The notes beneath the pieces were generated by a model, which saw only the letters and a program-made list of their open reading frames with translations, searched no databases and had not been told where the DNA came from. The position numbers were made by a program, and so were the translations under genes. A stretch of DNA of 64,000 nt from Bacteroidota bacterium (GTDB lineage Bacteria > Bacteroidota > Bacteroidia > M30B66), in NCBI GenBank assembly GCA_947460255.1, contig CANHIS010000009.1, positions 1 to 64,000 of the forward strand. Direction: 5' to 3'. Of the stretch, positions 58,923-61,523 are shown piece after piece (the first letter of the stretch is position 1; each line of letters opens with the position of its first letter).

Positions 58923-59032
58923 GAAAACAATTGCGTAAAAAAGCGGTAAAATAAAATTTGTAATATCAAAAACACCATTAAAATCCAATAGATGCGTTTC
59001 ATCTTGAGATTTTCATTTTTAGTGTTGCTCAT
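58919..59032 (-). CDS. 37-residue single-helix membrane protein, coupled to the symporter
   Basis: A short frame from the ATG at 59032 (MSNTKNENLKMKRIYWILMV ...) encodes a polar N-terminus, a basic patch (KMKR) and one strongly hydrophobic helix (about 13-31). It overlaps the preceding PIG-L C-terminal frame by 14 bp and the symporter start by 4 bp (ATGA), so both junctions look translationally coupled. Size and placement suggest an accessory or helper peptide of the symporter; this is inference, and no named family is known to me. Confidence 0.6.
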   Translation of the reverse strand: MSNTKNENLKMKRIYWILMVFLILQILFYRFFTQLFS

Positions 59033-60137
59033 TTTTCCCCACTGATAAAAAATTAGAGAACAAGCGAAAAGCCCCAGGCACACCGGCTGGTAGTTGACGA
59101 AAAAACGCCAATCCAGTGTATATAAAATGACCAGATCCAAAAGGTGCATATATCAGCGATCCTTTCATTTCGGTTTCATTGGGATCGGCCATTGAAAGCA
59201 AATCTTGGTATTCAGAACTCACCTTTTCTGTGAAATAAATACCACGTTCCTGCACCCATCCATCAAAATCTGAATTGGTAATTTTATTAGGATAATTAAA
59301 AATTGGATGATCAGGATAAAGTATCTTCACCGGAGCTCGCTCATTGGTGACGCGATTTCTAGAAATCTCAAATGGAAATGGACCTGGAGAAACCTTCACA
59401 TCACTGATCCAGTTCTTTGTGTTGTACTGCATCACCAAAGTGCCTCCAAGTTTTGTGTATTCCAAAAAGAACGGCATCCATTGAGCCATATCTTCAACTG
59501 AATTGAGCGCTCGAATACCCACAACAATAGCATCAAAATCGCCTACAGAAAGATTCCTGATTTTTGCGTCATTCAGAATTTCAACTTGATAACCAGCACC
59601 TTGCAATGCTTCGGCAACATCATCGCCAGCGCCTTCAACATAGCCAATTTTGGCAACCGATTTTTCTAAAGGTGTGTAAGTAAAGCGAAATTCGCATGGT
59701 ACATGATAAGTTTGAGTTGGAATATGATCATATTCGATTCGCAAGGTTTGTTGAATTTCTTCTGCCACATTCGAACCTTTTTTTCTGAACATCACTTGAA
59801 TTGATTCATTAAAAGATGACTTCAATTCTCTAGAAGGATTCTTGCGAAGTTGAAAAGAAACTTTATGCTTGCGAGCCGTATTTGAATTGATTTGAATTTT
59901 CTCAGGTATTATTTGAAAGCCTTTATTTTCAGGAATATTCAAGTATAACTCACCTTCGAGACTGTCGATTAAAAACTCAATATTTAAATCCATCGAAACG
60001 TCGGTTTTTCCATTAGAAACAACAACCTGTTGGACCGGGACAGCACGAAGATTAGGAACGACCTCTACCCTTCTGGTTAACTCGCCTTTCACAGGATCAA
60101 CCCATTTGTAAATGATCGGTAATTTCCGAGTAATCAT
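59019..60137 (-). CDS. PIG-L family protein, C-terminal fragment after in-frame stop
   Basis: 372 residues from the ATG at 60137. It continues, in the same reading frame, the PIG-L deacetylase gene whose frame ends at TAA 60246-60248; the 36 codons between are open and family-like. Visible parts are a beta domain (RVEVVPNLRAVPVQQVVVSNG) and a glutamine amidotransferase-like fold (AKIGYVEGAGDDVAEALQGAGYQVEILND; DAIVVGIRALNSVEDMAQWM; GSLIYAPFGSGHFIYTGLAFF). It may be made by reinitiation, or be the dead tail of a pseudogene. Confidence 0.7.
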   Translation of the reverse strand: MITRKLPIIYKWVDPVKGELTRRVEVVPNLRAVPVQQVVVSNGKTDVSMDLNIEFLIDSLEGELYLNIPENKGFQIIPEKIQINSNTARKHKVSFQLRKNPSRELKSSFNESIQVMFRKKGSNVAEEIQQTLRIEYDHIPTQTYHVPCEFRFTYTPLEKSVAKIGYVEGAGDDVAEALQGAGYQVEILNDAKIRNLSVGDFDAIVVGIRALNSVEDMAQWMPFFLEYTKLGGTLVMQYNTKNWISDVKVSPGPFPFEISRNRVTNERAPVKILYPDHPIFNYPNKITNSDFDGWVQERGIYFTEKVSSEYQDLLSMADPNETEMKGSLIYAPFGSGHFIYTGLAFFRQLPAGVPGAFRLFSNFLSVGKNEQH

Positions 60138-60245
60138 AATACCGTTTACCGAAATTACAGCTTCTGCATAGAGTATAGGGTCGCTGTCTGGTTGACCAGT
60201 TTGTGTAAATTTTTCATGAATAAACAGGCCTTCATCATGAGGATT

Positions 60246-60248
60246 TTA
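60246..60248 (-). other. In-frame TAA interrupting the PIG-L deacetylase gene
   Basis: The minus-strand frame reads ...ISNPYWI-stop-NPHDEGLFIHEKFTQTG and remains open to 59019. In full-length relatives I recall a continuous PYWL-x-x-P run at this point. A single base change (for example from AAA, GAA or CAA) explains the stop; no frameshift is involved. Confidence 0.85.
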
Positions 60249-61523
60249 AATCCAATAAGGATTGCTAATTGGAGTATTTAAAGGAATTTGAATTTTAATC
60301 TTTTTTTCTACCAATTGATTGCTTTTAATTTTATCGGTAAATCTAATTTCTTCCTGCGCCCCTGGCACTTTCAAGGAAACCAGATTAACCATATTGGCTC
60401 TTCGATAAATAAAGTTGTAGTTACATGTTAGAGTGTCACCGGCTAAATACTCAATTTTTTGTACCGTAATATCCTGATAAACACCGCCCAAGGCCAACAT
60501 TAAATCTTCAACTTCTTTTAGTTTAACTTGATATTGAAATTTATCGCCCATCTTTTGAATTTCTTCAAGATATAAAACCAATTGCGGTATTGTAGCAGAA
60601 GCATTGTAAGGGTCGAAATTGCTGATCATTTGGTTCACCATCACCGAAATTCCTGCTCCATTTTGATAACGCGACCAAGAAGTTGGAACGCCATCAAAAA
60701 TTGTATTTCTTGCGGTATCACCATCCAATTGTGTGAAATACTCAAGAATTTCACCACGCTGCATTTTCACTCCAAAACCTTGGCTCTTGTGCTGAGATCT
60801 ACTCATCGAAGCAATTTCACCTATCGATAATCCTAAATTTTGATTGAATGCACCAACATCCATCTTTATCATGCCTTTGGTGTTGGTGGTGACGTCACGC
60901 GAAGGCATAAAGTTGTTCCAAAATAGCTTTTTAGATTGCCAAGTTTCAACATGTTTAAGCTGACGAGGATATTTCTTTGGATCTGCGGCAGCTTTAAATG
61001 CATCTACAGCTAATATTGCTGAAGCCGTATGGTGACCATGTCCGCCTTCGCCGGTAGTAGGAAATCGCGTGATGATAATATCTGGCTTGAAATTTCTAAT
61101 CACCCAAACCACATCATGTAGAACTGAATCTCGATTCCAAATAGAAAAAGTTTCTTCAGGATTTTTCGAGTAACCAAAATCGAAGGCGCGTGTGAAAAAC
61201 TGTTGTGCACCATCGATTTTTCTTGCGGCAAGCAATTCTTGTGTGCGAATCAAACCCAATGCTTCTTCTGTTTCAGAACCGATCAAGTTTTGCCCTCCAT
61301 CGCCTCGTGTAAGCGACAAATAAGCTGTTCTTACATGCAATTCACGCGACAAATAGCTCAACAATCGAGTGTTTTCATCGTCGGGGTGAGCAGCAATGTA
61401 AAGCACGCTTGCAGTATTTCCAAGCCTTTGAAGCTTTTGTAAAATTTCTGCCGACGATAACTGTGCACTTAAAAAACCAGCACTGTAGATGAATGTGAAT
61501 AATAAGATGATTTTGTACTTCAT
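60246..61523 (-). CDS. PIG-L family deacetylase, N-terminal part (truncated by TAA)
   Basis: 425 residues from the ATG at 61523 (MKYKIILLFTFIYSAGFLSAQ, a signal peptide); the frame to 61568 adds a non-signal leader. The zinc-binding AHPDDEN motif of PIG-L/LmbE N-acetylglucosaminyl deacetylases lies near residue 45, with RGDGGQN and the HGHHTASAILAVDAF second histidine motif. The catalytic domain is therefore complete in this part. In Bacteroidota the protein is usually over 800 residues; here a nonsense codon removes the C-terminal half. It heads the operon with the 37-aa protein and a symporter. Confidence 0.85.
   Translation of the reverse strand: MKYKIILLFTFIYSAGFLSAQLSSAEILQKLQRLGNTASVLYIAAHPDDENTRLLSYLSRELHVRTAYLSLTRGDGGQNLIGSETEEALGLIRTQELLAARKIDGAQQFFTRAFDFGYSKNPEETFSIWNRDSVLHDVVWVIRNFKPDIIITRFPTTGEGGHGHHTASAILAVDAFKAAADPKKYPRQLKHVETWQSKKLFWNNFMPSRDVTTNTKGMIKMDVGAFNQNLGLSIGEIASMSRSQHKSQGFGVKMQRGEILEYFTQLDGDTARNTIFDGVPTSWSRYQNGAGISVMVNQMISNFDPYNASATIPQLVLYLEEIQKMGDKFQYQVKLKEVEDLMLALGGVYQDITVQKIEYLAGDTLTCNYNFIYRRANMVNLVSLKVPGAQEEIRFTDKIKSNQLVEKKIKIQIPLNTPISNPYWI

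Follow-up and report, generated by a model that had tools for sequence, protein, structure and literature searches.

An in-frame stop codon private to one genome in an exported PIG-L deacetylase gene of a Bacteroidota bacterium, most likely a recent nonsense mutation

Archaeal N,N'-diacetylchitobiose deacetylases (PDB 3wl4, 4xm1, and 8bgn) are single-domain enzymes of ~265 amino acid residues. The long PIG-L deacetylases of Bacteroidota are chains of ~830 residues with a PF02585 domain, two beta-sandwiches and an alpha/beta C-terminal domain; nothing specific to this long protein type was found in the literature. The metal-binding motifs of the PIG-L family are HPDDE, close to the start, and a later HxxH-type motif. 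The gene described here was found in a window of 64,000 nucleotides of a Bacteroidota draft genome (GCA_947460255.1). Its domain order, length and motifs are the same as those of the long Bacteroidota proteins. Different from them, however, it carries a stop at codon 426, which was found in this genome only.

The PIG-L gene frame and its internal stop codon

Translation of the minus strand from 61523 to 59019 gave one frame of 835 codons, counting the internal and the terminal stops. It had 834 positions ahead of the terminal TAA (59021-59019) and one internal stop, the TAA at 60248-60246, with 425 codons upstream and 408 codons downstream. No frameshift was needed to join both halves. A previous sequence-only reading had described this frame as broken only by the TAA and followed by 36 family-like codons; its coordinates and description were right, and the 36 codons aligned residue by residue with the protein of the sister genome, designated G001. 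Full-length alignment of the 408-codon downstream frame with the same protein is far beyond chance. The first in-frame ATG after the TAA, which the same reading had also located, is codon 463 and lies 109 bases beyond the stop, whereas the ATG closest downstream of the TAA is not in the PIG-L frame.

The frame encodes, in order, a signal peptide, the PIG-L deacetylase domain, two beta-sandwiches and a C-terminal alpha/beta domain. The PF02585 profile matched with 63.2 bits against a curated cut-off of 28.2, and the whole deacetylase domain is in the upstream half, as had been claimed. The downstream 408 codons matched no Pfam family above cut-off. HPDDE (residues 46-50) and H162/H165 were invariant in the alignments. 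Moreover, many residues of the C-terminal domain were invariant or nearly invariant in the alignments, suggesting that this domain matters to the protein.

The structure of the read-through chain was modeled with an alignment of 60 sequences, and the model had a mean pLDDT of 90.8 and a pTM of 0.91. Its strand order suggests the PIG-L domain, the first and second beta-sandwiches and the C-terminal alpha/beta domain, whose limits are approximate and represent our own reading of the model secondary structure (Table 1). In the predicted model, the stop falls in a loop of the first beta-sandwich, between strands 405-412 and 452-459, and the 425-residue chain is without the final strands of this sandwich. 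The predicted catalytic domain was similar in fold to the archaeal diacetylchitobiose deacetylases (Foldseek, E = 4e-8). Weaker Foldseek matches were to GH42 enzymes (E = 8e-5), possibly through the C-terminal domain. When each half of the frame was searched by sequence against the Protein Data Bank, there were no matches; only the fold comparison gave any. The gene is an ordinary exported single-chain PIG-L gene of Bacteroidota, with deacetylase activity predicted from sequence and model.

Table 1. Features of the PIG-L gene, given as positions of the window
Feature	Position	Strand	Basis
Whole PIG-L gene frame	59019..61523	-	Full-length alignment to uninterrupted relatives
In-frame TAA, codon 426	60246..60248	-	Sense codon in 28/28 relatives covering the site
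PIG-L deacetylase domain, residues 41-175	60999..61403	-	PF02585 match
First beta-sandwich, residues ~349-476, cut by the stop	60096..60479	-	Strand order, predicted model
Second beta-sandwich, residues ~480-616	59676..60086	-	Strand order, predicted model
C-terminal alpha/beta domain, residues ~625-830	59034..59651	-	Predicted model; many invariant residues
First in-frame ATG past the stop, codon 463, within strand 462-476	60135..60137	-	Predicted model (for the strand)

The stop site in relatives

Homologs were searched for in 60 genomes, including the one under study, and matches were found in 32. The protein of G001, which is the closest relative and belongs to the same genus, was 79% identical over the whole gene and 73% identical in the C-terminal half, and was free of internal stops. 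That of another relative, G004, was 61% identical and also stop-free. In a 30-locus alignment, in which one relative was a fragment ending earlier, all 28 relatives covering the site of codon 426 had a sense codon there. This column was highly variable (E, K, N, Q, A, R, S, and others), with a conserved PYWL motif just ahead of it. Internal stops flagged in two orthologs (G018 and G029) were only the normal terminal stops.

A further 80 loci were examined in other genomes. Single uninterrupted chains were encoded by 74 of them; five ran off the contig and one (L052) was broken. The L052 frame stops at 477 residues, soon after PYWL and with unrelated residues before the stop, at a position 132 bases away from the contig end; it was not counted as a split, since a frameshift at the assembly end is probable. 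A class-wide search with only the C-terminal half found it in 133 of 247 genomes. It stood in its own frame of 408 residues in this genome only, and the main match in each of the other 132 lay in a frame open for at least 676 residues; these counts rest on main matches, some genomes also having a few minor secondary fragments. Several stop flags similar to those of the two orthologs, in open frames of 820-950 residues, were presumed to be terminal as well. By these comparisons, the TAA at codon 426 is private to this genome among the genomes examined.

It had been proposed that the two halves might function as a split pair. Translation would then end at the TAA and resume at the ATG at 60137, as in that proposal, or at another start, to give a deacetylase and a separate C-terminal protein. 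Intact frames in both halves and the lack of decay in the C-terminal half are consistent with two working chains. However, the stop lies within one beta-sandwich of the predicted model, and a chain starting at codon 463 would begin inside strand 462-476 and also be without strand 452-459, such that neither product would have a whole domain set. The break, as predicted, does not fall between domains and leaves no usable start at the first in-frame ATG. Moreover, the restart codon is distant from the stop and is not the nearest ATG, its product would be without a signal peptide, and relatives readable at the site continued through it in every case. Two working chains are thus very improbable, a conserved split of the gene was rejected, and the proposal of a functional split was not supported, as no other examined genome is split at this position.

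A full-length protein would also be made if UAA were read through in this organism. The fully conserved frame past the stop and the tolerance of the codon 426 column for many residues fit such read-through. Against it, UAA is the commonest terminator in this genome, ending 129 of 189 shared genes, on which ground reassignment of UAA as a sense codon was rejected, and TAAA, the context found here, is the commonest single terminator context (50). In addition, no stimulating RNA structure was found near the stop, as the RNA around and after it folded little better than shuffled sequences (z = -0.96), and no relative covering the site kept a stop there. Read-through is hence highly unlikely. The same degree of doubt applies to a newly arisen two-chain or read-through state, in which the deacetylase would be made mainly without its C-terminal domain together with some full-length protein or a separate C-terminal chain. 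Functional split or recoding has no positive support.

The previous reading had offered recent nonsense mutation, read-through and reinitiation side by side. The first stands, alongside a base error, while the latter two were not borne out, given the sense codon in relatives and the lack of any sign of recoding. It had also stated that a sense codon in close relatives would make the stop an error or a strain-specific lesion, and that is what the comparison gave.

Recent nonsense mutation versus base error

The host assembly is a 4.13 Mb draft genome of 246 contigs with a completeness of 97%, and the window is on contig 9 (68,771 bases). About 850 kb of this genome were compared with 1.2 Mb of G001; the unfiltered stop list consisted mostly of antisense shadow frames and alternative starts. 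With overlapping shadow frames removed, 221 shared genes (91,858 codons) were comparable, and among them PIG-L alone had a clear in-frame stop that was not close to a gene end; a further flagged stop was within a poorly aligned N-terminal stretch. The reverse comparison covered 219 genes and gave no stops and one frameshift, which was in a 153-residue gene of G001 (contig C7, near 21010) that is a single open frame here (G000 C6:15844-16305). A generally poor assembly is therefore unlikely, and an error-ridden assembly was rejected as a general cause of the stop.

The C-terminal half showed no sign of decay, as had been noted before. When this genome was compared with G001, dN/dS (Nei-Gojobori) was 0.043 for the N-terminal half and 0.107 for the C-terminal half, dS being close to 2. 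Taking G004 as the outgroup, we counted 17 unique amino acid changes in the C-terminal half for this genome vs. 28 for G001, and 16 vs. 11 in the N-terminal half. Thus, the C-terminal half is not evolving faster in this genome. A rough Poisson estimate gave P of ~0.03 for neutral evolution of the C-terminal half over 2% of the branch and ~0.005 for 3%, values that hold to an order of magnitude only given the assumed baseline and the near-saturated dS. Without excess change in the C-terminal half, the stop would be very young, absent from the organism as a consensus error, or inconsequential through read-through.

The most likely account, which we consider probable, is that a normal gene for a single chain acquired a nonsense mutation very recently. 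The premature stop in this one genome would truncate the exported deacetylase after residue 425. If it is made, the truncated chain would keep the catalytic domain but break off partway through a beta-sandwich and be without the conserved C-terminal domain, and would therefore probably be impaired or unstable. The stop would be too recent for decay of the downstream half to show. The complete lack of decay also counts against this account, since it fits a base error as well. Next most likely, and in our judgment rather unlikely, is that the TAA is a single-base error or minority variant in the draft consensus and that the organism's gene is intact. The division of the genome into 246 contigs, the undecayed frame past the stop and the intact site in every relative covering it are all as expected of such an error. 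However, such errors are rare in this genome, as the single clear in-frame stop among the compared codons indicates. A recent nonsense mutation is thus preferred, and the TAA base is presumably real in the organism.

Neighboring small open reading frames and comparison with known systems

Between the PIG-L gene and the gene for a sodium/solute symporter is a micro-ORF of 37 residues (59032-58919, minus strand), which has a single apparent membrane span and a TGA that overlaps the symporter ATG (ATGA). A similar micro-ORF preceded the symporter in ~46-48 of 51 loci in which PIG-L is followed by a symporter motif, nearly always at the same distance, as found with a loose search pattern. Such micro-ORFs were present in many of the loci L034-L112, with the typical sequence PPxFxxWxxWYxLVxxxLxxLIxLFYxFTKxFS. 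The members tested matched no Pfam or NCBIfam family above cut-off. The micro-ORF possibly encodes a small symporter partner that has escaped annotation, and as a lead it may be worth more than the PIG-L stop. An extra ORF of ~60-68 residues, often with a histidine-rich start, was also found between PIG-L and the symporter in six loci (L059, L075, L077, L095, L101, and L104), which are from Mucilaginibacter and some related genomes.

The stop itself matters little, whether it is a lesion of recent origin or a wrong base in a draft assembly. If the stop is real and the truncated enzyme is active, the need for the C-terminal domains could be judged from it. More generally, when the frame past a stop in a draft genome is undamaged, youth or error should be considered before a functional split.

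Compared with the archaeal N,N'-diacetylchitobiose deacetylases, the protein is alike in the fold of its predicted catalytic domain, but it is a long chain rather than a single-domain enzyme. The interruption itself is comparable to the nonsense alleles of young bacterial pseudogenes. Barring a possible assembly error, no difference from them was seen here: similar to these alleles, the gene has a single premature stop, an otherwise intact frame and intact orthologs in nearby relatives.
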